Shown here in pieces: positions 18,773 to 31,929 of a stretch of 64,000 bases of DNA. The position numbers were made by a program, and so were the translations under genes. A model generated the notes under the pieces. It searched no databases and was not told the origin of the DNA. It was given only the letters and a program-made list of their open reading frames with translations. The first letter of the stretch is position 1; the number at the start of each line of letters is the position of its first letter. Origin of the DNA: Pyrococcus kukulkanii (GTDB lineage: Archaea > Methanobacteriota_B > Thermococci > Thermococcales > Thermococcaceae); contig NZ_JARRIB010000005.1 of the NCBI RefSeq assembly GCF_041647995.1, forward strand, positions 62,001 through 126,000, written 5' to 3'.

Positions 18773-19714
18773 ATGGTCAGCAAACTCTTAGCCCTTGAAG
18801 CTTATCCAAAGCTTAAGGACATAGACTTCAGGTTACTCAGGGGTATAGAGCTTAAGATGAGGTATTATAAATGGGTTCCCCTAGAGGAAATCGCCAAGTT
18901 TGCCAGGATGGACGTAGAAAGCGCAAGCCATAGACTTGGGAGGCTGGACAATTGGGGACTAGTAATTAGGAGGAGCGACATGGGGTACATAGGTTATCAA
19001 CTAACGATACATGGATACGATGCACTCGCCATTAGGGCCTTCGCAAAGAAGGGCGTCATCGAGGCCATATCAACCACCCAGATAGGGGTTGGAAAGGATG
19101 CAGACGTATACGTTGCCCTAACTCCCTCCGGAGAGAAGGTTGCTGTTAAGTTCAACCGGATAGGGGAGAGGACGAGCGCAAGGAAAGCAGGCTACCACAG
19201 TGATGTATTCGCGGATAAGCATCATAAGAGCTGGCTGTACGTTTCAAGGTTGATAGCAAAGAAGGAGCACGAGGCCCTCGTCCTATTAAGCCCATTCGCG
19301 AAGGTTCCAAAGCCGATAGCTTGGAACAGACATGCAATAGTTATGGAGTTCATCAGCGGAGTTGAACTTGCGGATCTAAGGGATACCGACCTTACGAGAG
19401 AGGAAGCAAGTGAAATCCTGGGGAAAGTTCTTGATGAGTATGAAAAGATAGTCAGGTTCGGGATAGTCCACGGGGATATGAGTGAGTTCAACGTTGTGCT
19501 AACCGACGATAATGATATCCTGATAATAGATTGGGCCCAATACTTAAGTTGCGCAAATCCCGAAAGCTTAAATCTGCTAAAGAGGGACATAACCGTCCTG
19601 TTAAATGCCTTCAGGAGAAGATGGGGAGTGAAGAGGGAGTTTGAGGAAGAATGGAAAAGATTTTATGAAGCATGGCTAACTGGAAGGAAAGAGGTTAGCG
19701 AAGGAGAAGGGTAA
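18773..19714 (+). CDS. rio2: RIO2-type atypical serine kinase/ATPase
   Basis: A 313-residue RIO2 protein, which in archaea and eukaryotes acts in late maturation of the small ribosomal subunit. An N-terminal winged helix (about residues 8-85) is followed by the RIO kinase: flexible loop GVGKDADVY near 105-113, lysine in VAVKFNRIG, hinge VMEFISG, catalytic loop VHGDMSEFN and metal-binding IIDWAQ. The specific RIO2 loop TSARKAGYHSDVF is present. The gene is monocistronic and overlaps the convergent glmA by 20 nt. Confidence 0.95.
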   Translation: MVSKLLALEAYPKLKDIDFRLLRGIELKMRYYKWVPLEEIAKFARMDVESASHRLGRLDNWGLVIRRSDMGYIGYQLTIHGYDALAIRAFAKKGVIEAISTTQIGVGKDADVYVALTPSGEKVAVKFNRIGERTSARKAGYHSDVFADKHHKSWLYVSRLIAKKEHEALVLLSPFAKVPKPIAWNRHAIVMEFISGVELADLRDTDLTREEASEILGKVLDEYEKIVRFGIVHGDMSEFNVVLTDDNDILIIDWAQYLSCANPESLNLLKRDITVLLNAFRRRWGVKREFEEEWKRFYEAWLTGRKEVSEGEG

Positions 19715-22040
19715 ATTCGCCGGAGTGCCTAATGACTATCGTTGTGATGCCATCTTCCCTCTTCTCCTTTAGCACCTCCCCGCTTTCTATACCCACAACC
19801 TCCGCTTTAATGGCGACTTCGGAAGTGTCGCTTAGGTGGTTCCTGAACGTTATCTTGTCATCTTCGTAACCAACGACCGTAGCGGTTGAGTAGACGATCT
19901 CGTAATTACCGTGCTTAACGTTCACGGGAAGGAAAAGCACGCCCCTATTCCTCATCTCAAGCTCCGTAAGCTTGGGAAACTCGATGCCGTTGTAGCTTAT
20001 CCTGCCCTTAACGGTGTGGCCCCTCGGATTGATAACTGCAAGGTAGTTACCCCTTGGAATGACTATGATATCCCTATCCGTAACTTTAAAGTCCCTCTCA
20101 ACTCCCTGCAACTCTAGGATCTTGTCAACGAACTTCCTGTGCATGTCATGATAGCTTGAGTAGTACTGAAGCCTGAAACCCAGGATCACAGCGGAACCTT
20201 TCCCCTTCTTGACGAGGGCACCTACGACCTTATCCCCAACCCAAGCTATTGGCTCCCCTCCCTTGACCTCCCTAACGACGTTCCTAACGATCATCCTCTC
20301 TATTCCTTCGGCGTCAACGCTTACGAAGGGGATTAACCTGTAGTTGTCCCTTGCAACCTCCCCTCCAACCTTAACTCCCAAGAACTCCTCAAGCTTCCTG
20401 TACTCGTTCATGTTCTCGTCCAAGTACGGTAGCATTGGCATGATAACTAAGTTCCCACCCTTCTCAACGTACTCCGCAAGCTTGTCCTGGGCTTCCCTGG
20501 CCATGAAGTCGAGGCTGTAAACCCAGATCTGCTCGTACTTGAGCATCTCATCAACTGTGGTATTGTCTAAGTCGATTACGTCAAAGGGGACGTTGCTCAT
20601 TGCGAGTAACGTGAGGAGGCCTCTCTCGCCGAAGAGATACTCATTTAGGTTAACGCTCTCTTTGAAGTTCTCAGGCCTATAACCCCAGAGGTTTAGGGCC
20701 TCATAAGGCTCGTACATTGCGAAGGCAACCTTTGCATGGAATGGTGAATATGCAAAGTCCTTGTTGGCCTTAAGGAACTTTCCAATCCACTTTATTGGCT
20801 CTACGTGCTGCCTCTCACTTCCATCCAAGCTAATTGGAGAGTAAACGTCCCAAGTAACTCCGTTGTGAGATTCATAACCCCTCGGATTTTCACCGCCGAC
20901 GTAGAGGTAGTAGTTTATGTTGTGGATTCCTAGGGAAGGCAACAGGCCGTAGAGGAGCTCGGCCTCATCCTTCTCTATAACGTTTGCCAATGAAGATTGG
21001 GTCTCAATGCTCAATGGGGGAGTACCTAGCTTGTCAACGTAGTATCTGTAGATTCCAACCTTGTAGTAGATGTGCCCAAGCTTGTCCTCCTTAAAGTCAA
21101 AGCTCCTGTAAAACGAATACCAGAACTCTGTCCAGAGGTGGATATCAAGCTTATTCTTCTTTACGTAGTTGTAGAAGTGCCTCCAAGCGGCTAAAAGAAG
21201 GTAGGGATCAAGTATGCTAATCGGGACATCGACGTACCCCTTAATCTTATGGTACAGTGTTTTTACGTACTCGTTGACCATCCATATCTTGAAGTGGTGC
21301 CAGTCTAATATCTTTGGCAGGGGCTCAGAGAAGGCCTTAGGTGGAGCTATCTCTACATAGTCCGAAAGCTTAACCTTGTACCTCTCCTCAAGCTGATCCA
21401 AGGTGAAATTCTCCTTAAGCCACCTATGCCAGAGACCGTTTTCCTTAACTACAACATCGTTGTAATCCGTGAGGAACGCCTGGAATATCGTCTCCCAGTA
21501 CGAGGGCTCATCATCTATCGTGACGTTAATTATCGGCCCTCCTCTCGTGTATAAATAATCCCTTATTATTGGAAGCACATGCTCGTACCAGTTCATCACA
21601 TGCTCTAGGTACGTTGGATGAAGGTAGGTGATCGGCGGATAGTAAATGTCCCTAGGTAAGGGACCGTTCGGGCTTCTAGCAAGTATTTCAGGATGTTTGT
21701 TAATGAGCCACTGTGGAATACCACCGTTCTTCCATTCAGCGCAGATATAGGGGCCAGGCCTTATAATGACATAAAAACCAAGGTTCTGGGCAAGCTCAAG
21801 AAAGCCAACCAGATCTCTCTGGGGATGCGTCTCCCCAGTGAAGTCAAATTTGTCCTCTTCGGGCTCATGCCAATTCCATGCAACGTACGTGTCAACGGTA
21901 TTAAGGCCGTGCCTCTTCATCTTCTCCAACCTATCTCGCCAGACGCCCCTGGGAACTCTAAAGAAGTGAAGGGTTCCCCCATAAATCACTATTTCTTTCC
22001 CATCTAAGAGGTATAGCTTACCGTTATGGGTAACCTGCAT
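19695..22040 (-). CDS. glmA: Exo-beta-D-glucosaminidase GlmA (GH35-related, clan GH-A)
   Basis: A 781-residue cytosolic enzyme that removes glucosamine from the non-reducing end of chito-oligosaccharides, matching the remembered P. horikoshii PH0511 and T. kodakarensis TK1754 proteins. The TIM barrel comes first, with YVAWNWHEP near residue 52-60, acid/base region IDDEPSYW (D177, E178) and nucleophile region SIETQS (E346). Normal GH35 enzymes have Asn before the acid/base Glu; here it is Asp, as in characterised GlmA, where it faces the 2-amino group. The C-terminal half holds a beta-galactosidase-trimerisation-like and a beta domain. GGTGGTGATT lies before the ATG at 22040. Last gene of the leftward amino-sugar operon. 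Confidence 0.93.
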   Translation of the reverse strand: MQVTHNGKLYLLDGKEIVIYGGTLHFFRVPRGVWRDRLEKMKRHGLNTVDTYVAWNWHEPEEDKFDFTGETHPQRDLVGFLELAQNLGFYVIIRPGPYICAEWKNGGIPQWLINKHPEILARSPNGPLPRDIYYPPITYLHPTYLEHVMNWYEHVLPIIRDYLYTRGGPIINVTIDDEPSYWETIFQAFLTDYNDVVVKENGLWHRWLKENFTLDQLEERYKVKLSDYVEIAPPKAFSEPLPKILDWHHFKIWMVNEYVKTLYHKIKGYVDVPISILDPYLLLAAWRHFYNYVKKNKLDIHLWTEFWYSFYRSFDFKEDKLGHIYYKVGIYRYYVDKLGTPPLSIETQSSLANVIEKDEAELLYGLLPSLGIHNINYYLYVGGENPRGYESHNGVTWDVYSPISLDGSERQHVEPIKWIGKFLKANKDFAYSPFHAKVAFAMYEPYEALNLWGYRPENFKESVNLNEYLFGERGLLTLLAMSNVPFDVIDLDNTTVDEMLKYEQIWVYSLDFMAREAQDKLAEYVEKGGNLVIMPMLPYLDENMNEYRKLEEFLGVKVGGEVARDNYRLIPFVSVDAEGIERMIVRNVVREVKGGEPIAWVGDKVVGALVKKGKGSAVILGFRLQYYSSYHDMHRKFVDKILELQGVERDFKVTDRDIIVIPRGNYLAVINPRGHTVKGRISYNGIEFPKLTELEMRNRGVLFLPVNVKHGNYEIVYSTATVVGYEDDKITFRNHLSDTSEVAIKAEVVGIESGEVLKEKREDGITTIVIRHSGEFTLLLR

Positions 22041-22045
22041 ACGAA

Positions 22046-23020
22046 TCACCACCTAACAACTTTCTCCAAAAACCTTGGATTATCGGGGTTCATCCCCCTC
22101 TTAACGGCCTTATAATAGGCCAAAAGCTGAATTATCGGCAGGGTAACGACAGGCATTAAGAGTTCATCCACCTTAGGCACTTGGAGATAATATTCCGAGC
22201 CCAGCTCTTTCTCGCTTACCACCATGACCTTGGCCCCTTGACCCTGGAACTCCCGCACGAGTTTTTCATGCCACTCAAAGGGATCGCTAACGAGCATGAC
22301 GACAAGGGAGTTGTCGTCGGCTATGGACTTGAATCCGTGTCTCACCTCGAACATTGGGTAGGCTTCACTCCAGAATATTGCCATCTCCTTCATCTTCAGC
22401 ATTGCCTCAAGGGCCACGGGGTAAAGAATTCCCGAACCCAGGAATATAACATTGGAGAATTCAAATTCATCAACGAGCTTCCTAATGTACCCCTCATTCT
22501 TCAAGACATCTCTAGTTAACTTCGAGACTTCTTTGGCATTGAACACCTGAAGGCCGTAAGATTCCCTTAACAGCTGGAGGTACGAAAAGTAAAAAGCGGT
22601 GAATGAGTGAGTCATAACAACGCTGTCTTCAGGCGTGTCCACGATCAAAGCATAGTCAGCTTTCTTGGAGAGAGTGCTCTCGTAGGCCGTTAGACCCAGT
22701 TTTTTAACGTTGAGGACATCCATAGCCTTTAGAACTTCCGTTGTTTCCCCAGACCTTGATATCGCGACGATAAGCTCTGGGGAGTTTATTGCATAGTAAT
22801 TCCTTGAGTACATCAGCTCAGAGCACGGAAGGGCTATTCCCTTGCCCCCCAAGGCGTTCGTTGCCATTGCCAGCAATTGAGATAGGAAGTGAGAGGAGCC
22901 ACAGCCAGTATAGAGGATGTTCCTGGGCAGTGTTACTTCTTCCTTTATCCTTTCAAATGCTTCCTGGGCCTTGAGTATTCCTTCAGGAGTCTTTCTAATT
23001 TCCCTTAACGTGGCATGCAT
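22046..23020 (-). CDS. glmD: Glucosamine-6-phosphate deaminase GlmD (SIS domain)
   Basis: A 324-residue protein with two SIS (sugar isomerase) domains. It converts glucosamine-6-phosphate to fructose-6-phosphate and ammonia, the archaeal replacement for NagB, as shown for T. kodakarensis TK1755. Phosphate-binding motifs are [12 protein letters not shown] near residues 36-47, SRSGETTEV near 89-97 and FLGSG. The region [12 protein letters not shown] holds the expected catalytic Glu/His. GGAGGTGG precedes the ATG at 23020. There is no N-terminal glutaminase domain, so it is a deaminase rather than a GlmS synthase. It lies between the transporter ATPase genes and glmA. Confidence 0.92.
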
Positions 23021-23037
23021 TTTAACCACCTCCTGAT

Positions 23038-24000
23038 TCAAGCCTTTGCATAGAGCCAGCATGCTACCCAATGATTCTTTTCGGCTTCAACCATTGGGGG
23101 TCTTAGTTTGAAGCACTTGTCCATAACCTTAGAACACCTAGGAGCATACCTACAACCCTTAATCTCATACACTCTCCCCTCTTCTCTTTCAGGCTCAATC
23201 CCCCTAAACTCCCACTTCACACTCAAATCAGGAACACTCTCCAACAACATCCGCGTATAAGGGTGCAAAGGATTACGAAACACCCTCTCAGTATCCCCCC
23301 ACTCTACCACCGTCCCCCTATACATTATGATAGCCTTATCACTAATGTAATAACCCAAGCCCAAATCATGCGTGATGAACAAGACTGACGTACCATACTT
23401 ATCCCTAAATTCCCCTAAGAGGTTCAGAATATCAATCCTCGTCGAAGCATCAAGCATTGACACAGCCTCATCAGCAATCAACAGGGAAGGCCTAACCAAA
23501 AGCGCTCTAGCAATTAAGATCCTCTGTAACTGCCCACCACTCAACTGGTGAGGATACTTACCCAAAACCTCCCCAGGATTAAGACCAACACCCTCCAAAG
23601 CCCTCTCCACCAGTTCTTTCCGCTCATCCCCCGAAACACCCCTCAAAAAAGTCCTAAAGACCAAGTCAAAGGCACGATCAACCTTGTGTAATGGATTAAA
23701 CGAGGCAAAGGGATCCTGGAATACTGCTTGTACTTGCTTGTAATAATAATTCTTGAGCCTCCTCTTGTCAAACTTTAAAATGTCTTCACCCTTAAAGTAA
23801 ATCCTACCCGAAGTTGGCTGGATCAACCTCAAGATAAGTTTTCCTATAGTAGTCTTACCACTACCACTCTCCCCCACTAATGCGACGATTTCACCCTCAT
23901 TAATAGTGAAGGAAACATCATCAACAGCCCTAACCTCAAAACCACCAATAAGGCCAGAGGTAAAGATTTTAGTCAAGTGTTCAACCTTCACAAGCTCCAC
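23038..24000 (-). CDS. ABC transporter ATP-binding protein, DppF type (chito-oligosaccharide uptake)
   Basis: A 320-residue ATPase of the oligopeptide/opine family. Walker A is GESGSGKTT near residues 43-51, the ABC signature is LSGGQLQRI, Walker B is [12 protein letters not shown] and the switch His is in ITHDLGLGY. The C-terminal [14 protein letters not shown] with four Cys is the conserved tail of this family. The GTG at 24000 is used as start because it follows the preceding stop by one base and gives the usual N-terminus [17 protein letters not shown] lies just before it. Substrate specificity is inferred from the neighbouring glmD and glmA. Confidence 0.9.
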
Positions 24001-24001
24001 A

Positions 24002-24967
24002 CTAACCACCCCCAAGCATGTGACAAGCAGCATAGTGGTTTTCACCAACCCTAATCATCTTAGGCTCTTTTTCTGGGCAGATATCCATAGCATAAGGACA
24101 CCGTGTATAGAATCTACAACCCTTTGGCGGGTTGAGGAGGCTTATTGGATAACCACTGATCCCATGGAGTTTTTGCCTCTTGTAATGAACACCCATCCTT
24201 GGCAGAGAGTTTAGCAGCATTTGCGTGTATGGATGGGCTGGATCGTCAATCACCTCCTCCATTGGCCCAATCTCCACGACCTTCCCAGCGTACATTATCA
24301 TCACAGTATCAGCAATCTGCTTTAGAAGTGCTAGGTCATGGGTAACGAAGATAATTGACTTTACAATGCCCTCTTGCATGAAGTAGTGTAATAACTCAAT
24401 CACAACCCTCTGGGTTGTAACGTCCAAGGCTGATGTTATTTCATCGGCAATTAATAAATCTGGGTTTAATAGTGTGGAGACGACCATTGTTGCCCTCTGC
24501 CTCATTCCACCAGACAATTCTACGGGGTACATGTCAGCAACCCTAGGCGAGAGTTTAACCATAGCAAGCCTCTCCCTCAAGAGTTTCTCGACCTCCCCCC
24601 TGTCAGTATACCCATGCTCCCTAGCAAGATCCCAGACAATATCCCTAATCCTCTTCGTGGGGTTTAACGCGTTCATTGCATACTGTGGGATGATGGAGAG
24701 TTCGGTATACTGGATTCTCCTTGCCTCCTCCCTAGAAAGTTTCATTAAATCCCTGCCCTTGAATATTGCTTCCCCTGAAATGTGTCTCATTGGAGGTTTT
24801 CTCAGGATTAGGGAGTGGACTAGGGTTGACTTACCACAACCGGATTCACCAGCAATGCCAAAAACCTCACCCTCTTTAACCTCAAACGAAACACCATCCA
24901 CTGCTTTCACAAAACCCAACGGGGTAGAGTAGTAAACACGAAGACCCCTAACATCAAGCAAAACCAT
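24002..24967 (-). CDS. ABC transporter ATP-binding protein, DppD type (chito-oligosaccharide uptake)
   Basis: A 321-residue ATPase. Walker A is GESGCGKST, signature LSGGMRQRAT, Walker B LLIADEITSALD, switch His in VTHDLALLK, and the family Cys tail GCRFYTRCPYAMDIC. It pairs with the DppF-type subunit to energise the two permeases. An in-frame GTG at 24976 is an alternative start; the ATG at 24967 has GGTGAG at proper spacing. It lies one base past the DppC stop. Confidence 0.9.
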   Translation of the reverse strand: MVLLDVRGLRVYYSTPLGFVKAVDGVSFEVKEGEVFGIAGESGCGKSTLVHSLILRKPPMRHISGEAIFKGRDLMKLSREEARRIQYTELSIIPQYAMNALNPTKRIRDIVWDLAREHGYTDRGEVEKLLRERLAMVKLSPRVADMYPVELSGGMRQRATMVVSTLLNPDLLIADEITSALDVTTQRVVIELLHYFMQEGIVKSIIFVTHDLALLKQIADTVMIMYAGKVVEIGPMEEVIDDPAHPYTQMLLNSLPRMGVHYKRQKLHGISGYPISLLNPPKGCRFYTRCPYAMDICPEKEPKMIRVGENHYAACHMLGGG

Positions 24968-24968
24968 A

Positions 24969-25889
24969 TCACTCACCCCTCAAACGAGGATTGAACACTT
25001 CTTCCATTCCGAGGTTGATGAAGAACAATGCCGTGATTATCAGGGTGATAATTAACCCCGGTGGAATGAACCACCACCACCAGCCGAACTGGAGGGCGTT
25101 GTGCATTATTGCCTTCTGCAGAATTGTTCCCAGAGAGATCATTGTCGTTGGGCCTAAACCTATGAAGTCAAGGGTTGCAGAGGCTAGGATAGCTCCACTG
25201 ATCTGGAGAATACCAACCATGACTATGTACGATATCATGTTGGGCATTATCTCTTCGAAGATTATCCTGAGATCTGAGAGACCTGCAAGCTTTGAGAGGT
25301 TGACGAATTCCCTGTTTTTCAGGGAGAGAGTTTGGGCCCTTACTGACCTCGCTACCCAGGGCCAGTTCGTTAGACCTATAATCAGGGCCTGAACCGCTGG
25401 GCTTCTTGCTTCAAGGTACGCTGCAACCAAGATCAGCAGAACGATTGAAGGAATGACGAGCATTATGTTGACGAACATCATCAATAGCTCATCTACGAGT
25501 CCACCCTTGTAACCGGAGACGAAACCTATCGTTATTCCCAGGGTTGTTCCAATTATTGCCGCAAGGAATGCTATCCACAGTGACGTCCTCAAGCCATAAA
25601 CGAGCTCCGTATAGACGTCCCTCCCTTCCTTATCCGTTCCCAGGATGTGAAGGACTTCAACGGTCTTCCCAGTGTACGTTGTTATGTTCTCCCTGGTCAT
25701 TGGAGGGAGGGTCTTTGTTGAATACGATGCAAGCTTGATTTTACCCACTTGTTCGTAGTACAGGCCATCGCTAGCAAAAGGCGTGAACAGAGGCCCAATT
25801 AAGCCGAAGAGTATGAAAAACACGATAAGACCGAATCCAAATTTGAACTTGTTGTTCTTGAATGCGAGCTTTATGAGTTCCATCTTCAT
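24969..25889 (-). CDS. ABC transporter permease, DppC type
   Basis: A 306-residue inner-membrane permease with about six transmembrane helices. A first helix (about 16-36), a large extracytoplasmic loop with the typical HILGTDKEGRDVYTELVYGLR motif split between strands, and the C-terminal permease core with EAA-like ENIMP region (RIIFEEIMPN) are visible. It forms the channel with the DppB-type protein. The ATG at 25889 overlaps the DppB stop (ATGA); another ATG two codons later has a better-spaced GGAGGG. Confidence 0.92.
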   Translation of the reverse strand: MKMELIKLAFKNNKFKFGFGLIVFFILFGLIGPLFTPFASDGLYYEQVGKIKLASYSTKTLPPMTRENITTYTGKTVEVLHILGTDKEGRDVYTELVYGLRTSLWIAFLAAIIGTTLGITIGFVSGYKGGLVDELLMMFVNIMLVIPSIVLLILVAAYLEARSPAVQALIIGLTNWPWVARSVRAQTLSLKNREFVNLSKLAGLSDLRIIFEEIMPNMISYIVMVGILQISGAILASATLDFIGLGPTTMISLGTILQKAIMHNALQFGWWWWFIPPGLIITLIITALFFINLGMEEVFNPRLRGE

Positions 25890-26878
25890 CCCTCCGTGTA
25901 GCTAACCCTAACACGCGGATCAATGAGGGCGTAGACTATGTCTATCACGAAGTTGGCCACTAGGACGGCAATGACGATCATCAGAAATCCACCCTGTAAG
26001 AGGAAGTAGTCCTGACTTAAAGCCGCACGCATCAGCAGAACTCCAACTCCAGGGTAGTTGAAGACTATTTCAGTTGCAATTGCCCCAGCAACCATTAGGC
26101 CCAACTGCAAGGCGAGTCCGGTTATCTGGGGGAGGATTGCGTTCCTGTAGGCGTGCTTAGTCATTAGTTTTTCACTTGCACCTAGGGCCTCGAGGTACCT
26201 GACGTAGTCAGCCTCAAGCTCATAGATTATCATGTTTCTCATCCCTATGGCCCAGCTACCGATCATGACTATGAACAGACTTAGGAACGGGAGTATCCAA
26301 TGCTTCAAGAAATCTACAATGAACGTTAAAGAAAATCTCGGAACTAAGTCCGGGCTATAGGCTCCCTGATATGGCAACCAGCCGAGCTTAACTCCGATTA
26401 CGTACACGAGGAGCATGGCAAACCAGAAGTACGGTATGCTCGCCAAGAAGTAAAAGAGGGGCATCACGTACCTGTCGTACTTCTTGTTCTTCCCTGCCAA
26501 TGCACCGAGCCAATTGCCTATGATCCAACTCAGAACTATAGCGGGGAATAGGATCGCTATGTCATATGGAAGCGCGTGCTTGATTAAATCCGAAACCGGG
26601 GCTCTGTAAAGTATGCTATACCCAAGGTTACCGGTTAGCAGGGATTTCCAAAAGCTTATGAACTGAACGTAAAGTGGCTTATTTAATCCGTACAGCTCTT
26701 CATAAAATTGTAACAGAGTTTCCCTCTCCTGGGGGGATAAGCCCAGGGCGGAGTTTATCATGATCTCTATAGGGTTACCGGGCATTAATCTAGGCAACAA
26801 CCAGTTCAGGGTTACAGCAAATATGAACGTTAAAAAATAAATGAGAATTTTCCTCTTTAGGTACTGCTTAAATCCCAT
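25886..26878 (-). CDS. ABC transporter permease, DppB type
   Basis: A 330-residue permease with an N-terminal helix (about 12-30) followed by PRLMPGNPIE, the standard DppB motif, and about five further helices. The EAA loop ALGASEKLMTKHAYRNAILP is clear. It starts 45 nt downstream of the binding-protein gene and overlaps dppC by four bases. Confidence 0.92.
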   Translation of the reverse strand: MGFKQYLKRKILIYFLTFIFAVTLNWLLPRLMPGNPIEIMINSALGLSPQERETLLQFYEELYGLNKPLYVQFISFWKSLLTGNLGYSILYRAPVSDLIKHALPYDIAILFPAIVLSWIIGNWLGALAGKNKKYDRYVMPLFYFLASIPYFWFAMLLVYVIGVKLGWLPYQGAYSPDLVPRFSLTFIVDFLKHWILPFLSLFIVMIGSWAIGMRNMIIYELEADYVRYLEALGASEKLMTKHAYRNAILPQITGLALQLGLMVAGAIATEIVFNYPGVGVLLMRAALSQDYFLLQGGFLMIVIAVLVANFVIDIVYALIDPRVRVSYTEG

Positions 26879-26923: not shown

Positions 26924-28804
26924 TCAGAGTCTCCTCCTTCTCAAGATGAGTGGAACTGCCGCTAAGGTAAGGATAGCCGCTGGACCACAGATGCCGCCCT
27001 TAGTCTCGGTTGGTGAAGCCGTAACTGTAACGGTCTTCTCGACGGTCTGAGTCTTTTCTACTGTCTGTGTCTTCTCGACAGTCTGGGTCTGGACTACGGT
27101 GGTTGTCCCTGGACCAACGGCCTTAGCCGGCCTGACACCAAGGAATGCAAGTGCTGTACCCCAGGTACCGAAGCCTGGCCAGAAGATTGGAACACCGTAT
27201 GGATTCTCCTCGTTTGGCCAGTTAGCCCAGTACTGGGTGTTTGCTTCATAGAATAAGGTACCCATGTAGAGTGGAACTGCTGGAACGTCCTTAAGCCAGA
27301 TCTTGGTTAGCTCCCTGAGGAGCTCAACCTGCTTAGCCTCATCAGATGTCTTTGCAAGTTCGTCCAGTAACTTATTAGCCTCTGGGTTGTAGTAGTTACC
27401 GAAGTTTGCCCCACCCTTGTTATTCTCATCCTTATAGTACATTAAATCGTAGTAGACACTATAGGGATCTGGCTTGAATGTTCCAGCCCAGTGCATTGTT
27501 AAGTCGAACTCTCCAGCCTGTTGCTTGCTGACCATTGTAGCCCAGTCGTACTTCTTAACGTCAACCTTAATTCCGATAGCCTTGAGCTGGTTGACTACGA
27601 TCTCTACCGCCTGCATCCAGTCACTACATGGACCACATGCAGCGAACGTTAGGACGAGATCCTTACCGTTGTACTCCCTCCAGCCATCTCCATCGGTGTC
27701 CTTAATTCCAGCCTCGTCGAGGAGCTTTGCTGCATCAACTGGGTCACAGTACTTCCATCCGTACTCCTTGATTAGCTGGTTAACTCCAATCTTCTCCTTC
27801 CATGGCTTCATGACGTTACCGAGTGGGGTCTGGTCTGGGAGGTCGCTTATTGGTCCCTGCTTGACGATCTGTGCTGGACAGATTGCCTCGGCTATGGCCT
27901 TCCTGACGAGTGGGTCGTCAAGTGGCTTGTGCTTGGTGTTGAAGTACATTATAACTGGAACGACAGGTGGGAAGTACGGTGGCCTGTCAAGCCAACTAAC
28001 TATGTTCGGGTTCTTCTTCTTGAGCTCGACTATATCGACGTAGTAGGTACCTACGTCAAGGTCACCCTTGAGGAACATGTTTGCAGCCTGGTCGTTTGAG
28101 CCAACGTACAGCTGGACGATGTACTTTGGAGCTGGAAGGCCAAAGTACTTTGCACCCCACCACTCATCGTTCCTCACGAAAATTGCCTTCTGTTGCTGTA
28201 CAACCTTGTAGAGCTTGTAGGCACCTGAACCGACAAGGTACTTCTGCTCATCACCAAGGAATGTCATAGTCTTAACCTTCTGTGGGTCGATGTTCTTGAA
28301 TATATGCTCCGGGAGAATTAGGACGCTGTAGAGCTCATTTCTCCAAGCCCAGACGTTTGGAGTGCTCTTGAATATGAACTGAACGGTTCTCATGTCAAGA
28401 ACCTTTATTTCCTGGAGACCATATTTTGACCAGTCTTTAAGCCCTACCTTTTGGTAGTACTCAAATGAGAACTTGACATCTTCAGCTGTAAGTGGCTTTC
28501 CATCCTGCCACTTAGTGCCCTCCCTAAGTTTGACCTCAAAAACGTTTGGCTTGACCCACTTTCCGTATTCAGCAAGCCATGGAACGAGTTCGGTCTTCAT
28601 GAAGTTGAGCATGAACAATGGCTCAAAGACCAAACCAGCCATTGGGATTATGTTGCTTCCCTGAATTGGATTTGCATTTGTTGGTGGAGCGGAGTTAGCC
28701 GTGTACAAGGTTTGTTCCCTTGGAAGTTCTTCCTGGGCGGCAACTACTCCAATGGTACTAAGGAAGAACAGGGCAATCAATATTGTGGCTATGTACTTTT
28801 TCAT
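26924..28804 (-). CDS. ABC transporter substrate-binding protein (family 5) with CGP-CTERM tail
   Basis: A 626-residue extracellular binding protein. A signal peptide (about residues 2-24, ending VVAAQ) is followed by the SBP family 5 domain with WLAEYGKWVKPNVFEVKLRE and DVKFSFEYYQ motifs. Near the C-terminus is a Thr-rich spacer with VEKTQT repeated, then the Thermococcales CGP-CTERM sorting signal: CGPAAILTLAAVPLILRRRRL, shown here as a Cys-Gly-Pro box, a short hydrophobic helix and an Arg cluster. The protein should be processed and anchored outside the cell. Gene order with glmD and glmA makes chito-oligosaccharides the likely ligand. The ATG at 28804 is chosen over an upstream in-frame start at 28819. 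First gene of the operon. Confidence 0.9.
   Translation of the reverse strand: MKKYIATILIALFFLSTIGVVAAQEELPREQTLYTANSAPPTNANPIQGSNIIPMAGLVFEPLFMLNFMKTELVPWLAEYGKWVKPNVFEVKLREGTKWQDGKPLTAEDVKFSFEYYQKVGLKDWSKYGLQEIKVLDMRTVQFIFKSTPNVWAWRNELYSVLILPEHIFKNIDPQKVKTMTFLGDEQKYLVGSGAYKLYKVVQQQKAIFVRNDEWWGAKYFGLPAPKYIVQLYVGSNDQAANMFLKGDLDVGTYYVDIVELKKKNPNIVSWLDRPPYFPPVVPVIMYFNTKHKPLDDPLVRKAIAEAICPAQIVKQGPISDLPDQTPLGNVMKPWKEKIGVNQLIKEYGWKYCDPVDAAKLLDEAGIKDTDGDGWREYNGKDLVLTFAACGPCSDWMQAVEIVVNQLKAIGIKVDVKKYDWATMVSKQQAGEFDLTMHWAGTFKPDPYSVYYDLMYYKDENNKGGANFGNYYNPEANKLLDELAKTSDEAKQVELLRELTKIWLKDVPAVPLYMGTLFYEANTQYWANWPNEENPYGVPIFWPGFGTWGTALAFLGVRPAKAVGPGTTTVVQTQTVEKTQTVEKTQTVEKTVTVTASPTETKGGICGPAAILTLAAVPLILRRRRL
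27030..27105 (-). repeat. Short tandem repeats encoding the VEKTQT spacer
   Basis: Three successive near-identical 18-nt units in the binding-protein gene encode VEKTQT, VEKTQT and VEKTVT, after an initial TVVQTQT. Synonymous differences between units show that it is not a very recent duplication. It forms the flexible stalk between the binding domain and the membrane-sorting tail. Confidence 0.75.
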
Positions 28805-28819
28805 AGCAGACCACCCCAT

Positions 28820-29022: not shown

Positions 29023-30474
29023 ATGGAATTCTATTGGGGCGTAGTCCAATCGGCATTTCAATTTGAGATGGGAGATCCCTATAGGAGGAATATAGACTCA
29101 AGAAGTGACTGGTGGGCATGGGTTCGTGACCCTTACAACATTAAAAATGAATTAGTTAGTGGAGATCTACCTGAAGAGGGGATTAACAATTACGATTTAT
29201 ACGAAATCGATCATAGACTCGCCAAGGATCTTGGTTTAAACGCCTACCAATTGACGATAGAATGGAGCAGAATATTTCCCTGCCCCACCTTTAACGTTGA
29301 AGTAAGTGTTGAACAAGATGGTTATGGATTCATAAAGAAGGTTAAGATAAAGAGAGAGCACCTGCAACAACTTGATGAATTAGCAAATAAGAGGGAAGTT
29401 CAACACTATTTAGACGTCCTTAGAAACCTAAAGAAGTTAGGATTCACAACATTCGTTACTTTGAATCATCAGACTAATCCAATATGGCTTCACGATCCCC
29501 TCGAGGTCAGGGCAAATATAGAGAAGGCCAGAGCTAAGGGATGGGTAGATGAGAGAGCAATAATAGAGTTCGCTAAGTTCGTCGCTTATATTGCTTGGAA
29601 GTTCGATGAGTACGTAGATTATTGGGCAACTTTTGACGAACCTATGGTAACGGCCGAATTAGGATATTTGGGCCCATACGTTGGATGGCCCCCAGGAATA
29701 CTCAACCCAACGGCAGCAAAAAAGGTAATCCTGAATCAAGTAATAGCGCATGCGAGAGCCTATGATTCTATTAAGAAGTTCTCCAAGAAACCCGTTGGGA
29801 TAATTCTAAATATAATACCAGCCTATCCCCTCGATCCAAACAACCCGAAAGACCAAAAAGCCGCTGAGAATTATGACCTCTTCCACAATAGGATATTCTT
29901 AGAGGCCGTAAACAGAGGAAGACTTGACATTGAGATATCCGGGGAATACGTCAAGGTAGCACACTTAAAGAGGAACGATTGGATAGGGAACAACTACTAC
30001 ACAAGGGAAGTCGTAAGGTACGTGGAACCTAAGTACGAAGAATTGCCACTTGTTACATTCGTTGGAGCCGAAGGCTATGGATATTCAGGGAATCCAAACA
30101 GCGTCTCCCCAGATAATAACCCAACAAGCGACTTTGGATGGGAAGTATTTCCTCAAGGCCTATATGATTCCACGGCAGAGGCATACGAATACTGCAAGAA
30201 CATCTTCATAACGGAAAATGGGATTGCCGACTCTAAGGACATCCTGAGGCCAAGATATATAGTGGATCATATTGGAGAAGTCAAAAACCTCATCGAGAAC
30301 GGAATAAAAGTCGGCGGATACTTCCATTGGGCCTTGACGGATAATTACGAGTGGGCGATGGGATTTAAGATAAGATTCGGGCTTTACGAAGTTGACTTGA
30401 TAACAAAGGAGAGGATACCAAGAAGAAGGAGCGTTGAAACTTATAAGAAAGTCGTTAGGGAGGGGATAGAATGA
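29023..30474 (+). CDS. GH1 family glycosidase with TFDEP acid/base motif, probably amino-sugar specific
   Basis: A 483-residue cytosolic TIM-barrel enzyme of glycoside hydrolase family 1. Conserved points are Gln13 in SAFQFE, WSRIFPCP at 81-88, His149 in TLNHQ, acid/base Glu206 in ATFDEP, nucleophile Glu398 in FITENG and the end of the barrel ALTDNYEWAMGF (437-448) with RFGLYEVD. In nearly all GH1 enzymes the acid/base motif is T(F/L)NEP; here Asn is replaced by Asp205. Since that residue contacts the C2 group of the sugar, an amino sugar is a plausible substrate. It is close to PH0501-type proteins of P. horikoshii, annotated as beta-glycosidase or mannosidase. No signal peptide. Its last four bases overlap the start of vapB. 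Confidence 0.87.
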   Translation: MEFYWGVVQSAFQFEMGDPYRRNIDSRSDWWAWVRDPYNIKNELVSGDLPEEGINNYDLYEIDHRLAKDLGLNAYQLTIEWSRIFPCPTFNVEVSVEQDGYGFIKKVKIKREHLQQLDELANKREVQHYLDVLRNLKKLGFTTFVTLNHQTNPIWLHDPLEVRANIEKARAKGWVDERAIIEFAKFVAYIAWKFDEYVDYWATFDEPMVTAELGYLGPYVGWPPGILNPTAAKKVILNQVIAHARAYDSIKKFSKKPVGIILNIIPAYPLDPNNPKDQKAAENYDLFHNRIFLEAVNRGRLDIEISGEYVKVAHLKRNDWIGNNYYTREVVRYVEPKYEELPLVTFVGAEGYGYSGNPNSVSPDNNPTSDFGWEVFPQGLYDSTAEAYEYCKNIFITENGIADSKDILRPRYIVDHIGEVKNLIENGIKVGGYFHWALTDNYEWAMGFKIRFGLYEVDLITKERIPRRRSVETYKKVVREGIE

Positions 30475-30680
30475 AGACGATAGCCGTTGACGAGAGTACT
30501 TGGAAGAAAATTAAAATGCTCAAGGATAAACTTGAAGCAAGGTCGTACGATGAAGTACTACAAAAGCTAATAGAAACATGGCATTTGGTTGAACTCGATA
30601 AAAAGGTGGACAAGGTCGTAATGAGTGATGATGAAGCTGAAACCTTAATTAATATCATTAAAAAGAAGAAGGAGAGTTGA
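30471..30680 (+). CDS. vapB: VapB-type antitoxin
   Basis: A 69-residue protein with the strand-helix-helix start MKTIAVDESTWKKIKMLKDK typical of archaeal VapB/DUF217-like antitoxins, whose N-terminal part binds DNA and C-terminal part (EAETLINIIKKKK) binds the toxin. The ATG overlaps the stop of the glycosidase gene (ATGA), an unusual coupling of a toxin-antitoxin pair to a metabolic gene. The cognate toxin gene begins four nucleotides after it. Confidence 0.82.
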   Translation: MKTIAVDESTWKKIKMLKDKLEARSYDEVLQKLIETWHLVELDKKVDKVVMSDDEAETLINIIKKKKES

Positions 30681-30683
30681 AAC

Positions 30684-31133
30684 ATGCCGTTGCCCCCTGA
30701 AATTACTTTTGATAGCGCTGCTCTTCTGAAGATGCACTCAAAGAGCAGGAAAAGGTTACTTGAGATAACCCTAGCAAAGTTCAACGTCAACATTTCAATA
30801 ATCACAATATACAGGTATTTAACGGCGAGAGCATACCTTAAGAAGAACATCGAGCTTGAATTTGACATATTAAAAGATATATATACAATAATCCCACTAA
30901 CTGAGGACATAATAATTAAAGCAGCCCAAATCGAGGCAAACTTACTCAGAAAAGGAATAATCATGGATATTGAGGATATATTAACAGCGGCAACTGCGAT
31001 CCAAACGGGCAGCCTTTTAATAGCAGATGATGCAAAGAGGTACGATCCGATTAGAAGGTTTGGGCTTGATACAATGCCACTGGAGAAATTCCTAAAAGAG
31101 GTAGAATTAATGGTAGAAAAGGAGCTCATATGA
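30684..31133 (+). CDS. vapC: VapC-type PIN-domain toxin
   Basis: A 149-residue PIN-domain ribonuclease. Acidic metal-binding residues visible are Asp in TFDSAALL near residue 10, and the [11 protein letters not shown] and [12 protein letters not shown] segments typical of VapC, which cut tRNA or rRNA. The middle Glu (in [10 protein letters not shown], where E is usual) is not clear, and Y/R replaces the common SELYYG-type motif, so activity may be reduced. It partners the adjacent VapB. Eight-base convergent overlap with dac. Confidence 0.8.
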
Positions 31134-31929
31134 GCTCAGCGAAGGGTGTGATGTGATAGAATAGGCTGGGCATTATTCTGAACCCTTCTGCATACTTGAC
31201 ACCTGCCTTTTGTCCATAATAGAGGGCCACCGTTCTAAGGAAGGGCTCCCAAATTTCCCAAATATCCTCGGGGAACTGACTTCTATGAACCCTAATGGCC
31301 TTGAGCTTTAGATCCATGATGTCGGTAATATCAACGAAGTAATTGGGTTTGTGGGTGTAGTAAAGGGCTACAAATGATACTGAATGAGGCCTTAACCCCA
31401 TGTCAAGATCTATATTTGAGAAGTTCGGGAGCTGAGAGAAAGCCACTGCATCTAAAGCCAAGAAACCAGTTGTTCTATGATCAGGGTGAGCCTCATATGG
31501 TAACCAGGGATCTGGAAGGAACACCCCATCAGGTTTCTCTTTCCTAATGATTCTAACTATATCCTTCCTAACCTCCCTCGTATATGGAAGTTCAGTATCC
31601 CTGTAGTTTAGCCAATAAATCTTTTTCACGCCCAATATTTTAGCACTCTCTTCTTCCTCCTTTCTCCTAATTTGAGCCAGCTCGTGTCCCGTCATTGTTT
31701 CATCAGTAGTCCCCATGTAACCATCGGTCATGCAGAGGTAAATTACCTCAACTCCCCTGTCTGCTAACCTCTTAATTGTTCCGCCCATTCCTATGGCACA
31801 GTCGTCCGGATGGGGTTCTATACAGAGAACCTTTTTTACATCCTTTAGAAGATTTTGGATATCAAAGTCAAGAACATCATCAAGCAACTTCCTAAACGCT
31901 GTTTCAAAATCGTTTATCTCCTCAAACAT
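31126..31929 (-). CDS. dac: Diacetylchitobiose/GlcNAc deacetylase Dac (LmbE/PIG-L family)
   Basis: A 267-residue zinc-dependent deacetylase close to PH0499. It removes the acetyl group of the non-reducing GlcNAc of diacetylchitobiose and of free GlcNAc, producing substrates for GlmA and glucosamine for phosphorylation. Zinc ligands by family alignment are His40 and Asp43 in EPHPDD and His151 in AHPDH. The adjacent Asp42 is the usual base. It has its own promoter and faces the GH1-vapBC unit. An AGGAGGTG ribosome site precedes the ATG at 31929. Confidence 0.93.

Follow-up and report, generated by a model that had tools for sequence, protein, structure and literature searches.

Which sugar is recognized by a glycoside hydrolase family 1 (GH1) enzyme that sits in an amino-sugar locus and lacks the asparagine normally found before its catalytic acid/base? 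We addressed this question for a GH1 gene in a 64,000-nucleotide stretch of Pyrococcus kukulkanii DNA (the window; Table 1). Re-reading of the open reading frame confirmed the original prediction that its acid/base site reads TFDEP, with D205 directly before E206; the motif context is WATFDEPMV. The protein belongs to GH1, as it matches the family profile and keeps both catalytic Glu motifs (xEP and TENG). Two family-typical residues, the Asn before the acid/base Glu and an Arg on strand beta-2, are absent (D205 and Q76). Their loss is a departure from typical rather than defining traits, as the profile match and the catalytic pair are intact. A profile search with NF041127, the GlmA equivalog model (cut-off 1500 bits), gave no match to the GH1 protein, which could act like GlmA but is no member of the GlmA family. 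In a same-species MAG (QMUI01000002.1, locus L001), the nucleophile motif reads TAKG instead of TENG, a matter of two base differences that is probably an assembly error.

Table 1. Features of the GH1 gene and its neighbors, in positions of the window.
Feature	Position	Strand	Evidence or remark
glmA, exo-beta-D-glucosaminidase (EC 3.2.1.165); Asp-Glu motif D177-E178 counted from ATG at 22040	19695..22052	-	NF041127, 1555 bits; PDB relatives 8oug, 5gsl, 5gsm
glmD, glucosamine-6-phosphate deaminase	22046..23071	-	NF041128, 647 bits
ABC transporter, two ATPases and two permeases (abcF, abcD, abcC, abcB)	23038..26878	-	profile matches, conserved order
Solute-binding protein SBP_bac_5, divergent from GH1	26924..28819	-	profile matches
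GH1 beta-glycosidase, Asp type, BglB/TK1761 ortholog, 483 aa	29023..30474	+	Pfam GH1 PF00232, E=4.8e-63
Q76, in place of Arg near nucleophile	29248..29250	+	alignment; Os3BGlu7 R86 is a glycone-binding residue (PMC7356692)
Q150, in place of aromatic after glycone-binding His149	29470..29472	+	alignment; Os3BGlu7 Y131 contacts glycone analogue (PMC7356692)
D205 (Asn in other GH1) and acid/base E206	29635..29640	+	D205 codon 29635-29637, E206 codon 29638-29640
E398, presumed catalytic nucleophile, TENG motif	30214..30216	+	motif alignment
VapB-like antitoxin ORF overlapping GH1 stop	30471..30680	+	weak Pfam match
PIN/VapC-like protein, accompanies Asp-GH1 and sister clades	30684..31133	+	weak Pfam PIN match, synteny
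dac, diacetylchitobiose deacetylase	31126..31929	-	PIG-L match; close to PDB 8bgn and PH0499 3we7

To place the aspartate within the family, GH1 genes were sought in 94 Thermococcaceae genomes, and those fetched were aligned and read; outside archaea, the sample consisted of 17 plasmid or phage genes together with the letter scores of family HMMs. Asp occupies position 205 in all 32 Thermococcaceae orthologs that cover the site (74-100% identity) and in none of 57 other GH1 proteins (40 archaeal paralogs and the 17 genes from plasmid or phage records). When a fragment of the window protein was scored with Asp, Asn or Lys at this position, the Pfam GH1 model and eight NCBIfam GH1 models preferred Asn to Asp by about 2.2-3.6 bits and scored Asp about the same as Lys; Asp is therefore at background level across these models as a whole. 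The near-universal Asn that the original prediction assumed for GH1 was thus borne out, both by the 57 proteins outside the clade and by the models, and no Asp turned up in the sampled GH1 proteins beyond the clade of the amino-sugar locus. This clade has a single origin in our tree, by one change (support 98/97, 31 rows). The D205 codon is GAC in 21 orthologs and GAT in 11, and the codons of Q76 and Q150 likewise vary silently across the readable orthologs of 74-100% identity, while the three residues stay the same. We therefore rejected neutral drift at these positions and conclude that Asp is kept by selection; its fixation is far beyond chance. A sequence error in a single isolate was also rejected, since orthologs in 32 genomes agree.

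The Asn-to-Asp change, although real, does not stand alone as first described, for Q76 and Q150 go with D205. Both glutamines are invariant in the Asp clade, whereas other aligned GH1 proteins have Arg at 76, or Ser in one small group, and Phe, Trp or Tyr at 150. Among the residues that are fixed in the clade but hardly occur outside it are Q76, T78, T143, Q150, T210 and I450. We mapped the numbering of the rice GH1 enzyme Os3BGlu7 onto the window protein by motif, which placed positions 76, 150 and 205 at R86, Y131 and N175. All three rice residues are reported to contact the glycone, with N175 binding O2 (PMC7356692), so three sugar contacts have been altered together in the Asp clade. An AlphaFold2 model of the GH1 protein, built from eight sequences, had a mean pLDDT of 45 and was left out of the evidence. 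The Ser-76 group forms a second odd set (G014, G019, G026 and G078; loci L119, L120, L122 and L123) that keeps Asn at 205; its genes lie near a CelB-like gene, with a GH16 gene also present in locus L119.

The distribution of the clade follows that of amino-sugar genes. Among the 94 genomes searched, glmA was present in 33, and Asp-GH1 occurred in 32 of these and in no genome without glmA; the sole exception, G045, is 74% complete. Strong glmD matches track nearly the same set of genomes. Fisher's exact test gives p = 2.5e-24 for Asp-GH1 against glmA, a value that is not to be taken literally, as the genes travel as a block and genomes are not independent. GH18 chitinases were found in 14 of 32 genomes with Asp-GH1 versus 3 of 62 others, and lie within a few kb of Asp-GH1 in at least five genomes (G017, G023, G051, G053 and G069). 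No GH18 chitinase was detected in the window's own genome at E <= 0.001, though the full chitobiose block is present, and its owner may therefore depend on imported chitobiose. A sister GH1 clade, which has Asn and Arg at the two positions, is found in a parallel module of importer, GH1 and PIN genes that lacks glmA, glmD and dac, and the clade shows no association with glmA (5/18, p=0.59); in G004, where the locus was checked, it adjoins a GH5 gene.

The gene order dac-PIN-GH1-SBP-ABC-glmD-glmA was kept in the complete loci that we read, except in G005 and G080. In G080, a sister GH1 module is inserted into the block. In G005 (loci L074, L075 and L131), the block is split over two chromosomal places, yet GH1, dac and glmA are all retained: glmA-glmD lies at the contig end, where a sister module adjoins it across the origin; the GH1-dac-ABC part is at 548 kb. 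This split is consistent with recombination between two similar ABC cassettes. A PIN gene accompanies GH1 in almost all loci of the sister clade and in every Asp locus long enough to include its position; it is unusual to find GH1 and VapBC conserved as a cassette. In G022, glmA (locus L083, G022:C1:1379114-1381458) falls into two overlapping frames, owing to a frameshift or to a sequencing error; the Asp-GH1 of this genome is intact.

The same locus also encodes GlmA, for which an Asp-Glu pair had been predicted. We confirmed this pair: the window GlmA reads DDEP at its acid/base site, and all 31 GlmA sequences have Asp-Glu. The Asp is disfavored by 2.9 bits in the GH35 model and by 2.3 bits in the GH42 model. 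The description of the two families as unrelated did not hold, as GH1 and GH35 both belong to clan GH-A. No similarity between GH1 and GlmA emerged when their profiles were aligned to each other, so the equivalence of their Asp-Glu pairs is taken from what is known of the clan and from the GlmA structure paper. According to that work, a chitinase initiates the archaeal pathway, Dac removes the acetyl group at the non-reducing end of (GlcNAc)2, and GlmA splits the resulting GlcN-GlcNAc; Asp178 of GlmA hydrogen-bonds the C2 amine, and a D178N mutant is inactive (PMC6566704).

Three linked substitutions, a single origin, invariance and co-occurrence with glmA are thus observed together in Asp-GH1, and genomic context and chemistry favor a GlcN-directed beta-glycosidase, a reading well supported by genomics. 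On balance, we consider it probable that this is the physiological role of the window enzyme. It would act as a retaining beta-glycosidase on the non-reducing 2-amino-2-deoxy sugars made by Dac, alongside GlmA, with GlcN-GlcNAc, GlcN-GlcN and related oligosaccharides as candidate substrates. Judging from the motifs, E206 would serve as acid/base and E398 as nucleophile. By analogy with Asp178 of GlmA, D205 would take the place of the O2-binding Asn, its carboxylate holding the C2 amine in an ion pair. Loss of the Arg at 76 would strip a positive charge from beside the nucleophile, leaving a more net-negative subsite suited to a cationic glycone, and Q150 may form a polar wall of the pocket. 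The two enzymes may divide the work by oligosaccharide length or by aglycone, or one might simply back up the other.

Several points count against this reading. GlmA already carries out the proposed reaction, so that a second enzyme looks redundant. The co-occurrence reflects one co-inherited gene block, and the genomes are therefore not independent support. The charge argument is weakened because the pKa of the amine falls at 90-100 °C. In CelB, an N206D change reportedly suggests that Asp alone may shift specificity toward mannosides.

A mannosidase is also what a characterized ortholog has been called. The second GH1 protein of genome G006 aligns with PDB 1vff across the full 423 residues, which identifies this genome as P. 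horikoshii; its Asp-GH1 is 86% identical to the window protein and is presumably PH0501, or BglB. A study by Kaper in 2002 is said to have described Gln77 and Asp206 as unique residues of BglB on which its specificity depends, so that the odd Gln/Asp pair is prior art. Activity was reportedly low, with pNP-mannoside the best substrate (Km 0.44 mM, kcat 4.3 per s), and mutants of this ortholog have reportedly been made already, D206N being faster and tighter on glucosides. These reports would fit a true beta-mannosidase (EC 3.2.1.25) that cuts Man from mannobiose or from Man-beta-1,4-GlcNAc of the N-glycan core, with Asp and Gln accommodating the axial C2 hydroxyl and the freed GlcNAc passing to Dac and GlmD. 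However, the sister clade, which we take to be of the P. furiosus beta-mannosidase BmnA type, keeps Asn and Arg, which argues that mannosidase activity needs no Asp; moreover, the turnover reported for BglB is low and no mannose gene was found in the block. We therefore regard a mannosidase as unlikely. The BglB work is not known to have covered a GlcN substrate, the third change, Q150, or co-occurrence with glmA. Our literature search, in which subscription journals were thinly covered and which is thus weak evidence, likewise returned no GlcN-substrate assay, no amino-sugar-locus link across genomes and no report of Q150. A 2002 title by Kaper on the P. horikoshii beta-mannosidase (doi 10.1021/bi011935a) is cited in PMC7356692.

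Quite unlikely, too, is a broad beta-glycosidase of low specificity, with a pocket relaxed at C2 and a locus link that reflects operon co-inheritance rather than a common pathway step. All partner genes do move as one block, and the orthologs are said to act on multiple substrates: both BglB and the 74%-identical ortholog in G023, which we take to be TK1761/Pk-gly of T. kodakarensis, reportedly hydrolyze aryl mannosides as well as aryl glucosides. A relaxed pocket is, however, hard to square with three residues that do not change among orthologs of 74-100% identity, even though their codons carry silent differences, or with the retention of GH1, dac and glmA in the split block of G005. A role on amino sugars that carry an N-acetyl group or another N-modification (beta-GlcNAc, beta-ManNAc), or one chiefly in transglycosylation that yields GlcN-containing compounds, is very improbable: the aromatic-to-Gln change at 150 leaves a larger polar space that could fit a bigger C2 group, but the Asp of GlmA would be expected to clash with an acetamide group, GlmA leaves (GlcNAc)2 uncleaved (PMC6566704), and the PDB matches of the window protein include none from the Asp clade, the best, 7f1n, having Asn.

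The claim of a glucosamine-specific GH1 enzyme thus stands in part: Asp was unseen outside the clade, and the clade is locked to glmA, glmD and dac, but the words "rather than mannosidase" are not established, because the ortholog assays reportedly show hydrolysis of both mannosides and glucosides. For a wider reading we see the scales evenly balanced, namely that a GH1 subfamily independently evolved GlmA-like, charge-based glucosamine recognition through Asn-to-Asp, Arg-to-Gln and aromatic-to-Gln changes, a convergent rewiring within clan GH-A, and that the published "beta-mannosidase" is a mislabeled glucosaminidase. If this is true, a characterized archaeal beta-glycosidase is misnamed, the chitin pathway of archaea includes a second glucosaminidase, two same-clan enzymes of one locus came to bind the 2-amino group through the same charged contact, and Gln-Gln-Asp provides a short sequence rule with which to spot or engineer GlcN-specific GH1 enzymes.

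Among known systems, CelB-like enzymes (41-44% identity) and the sister clade (56-61%, with a similar importer-GH1-PIN module) are of the same family as the window protein, but carry Asn at 205, either Arg or Ser at 76 and an aromatic residue at 150, and glmA, glmD and dac are absent from the module. BglB is an ortholog with the same Gln/Asp pair and the same gene neighborhood (L076), and differs in its published reading as a mannosidase. TK1761/Pk-gly has reportedly been characterized as a multi-substrate beta-glycosidase. It diverges by 26% in sequence, but is likewise an ortholog, forms an operon with the next two genes (TK1761-1763; PMC3691661) and has a GH18 chitinase gene about 2 kb away. 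GlmA (GH35; 5gsl, 5gsm and 8oug) belongs to another family, with another domain make-up and undetectable profile similarity, but shares with the window GH1 its clan, the Asp before the acid/base Glu, the locus and GlcN as the expected product.
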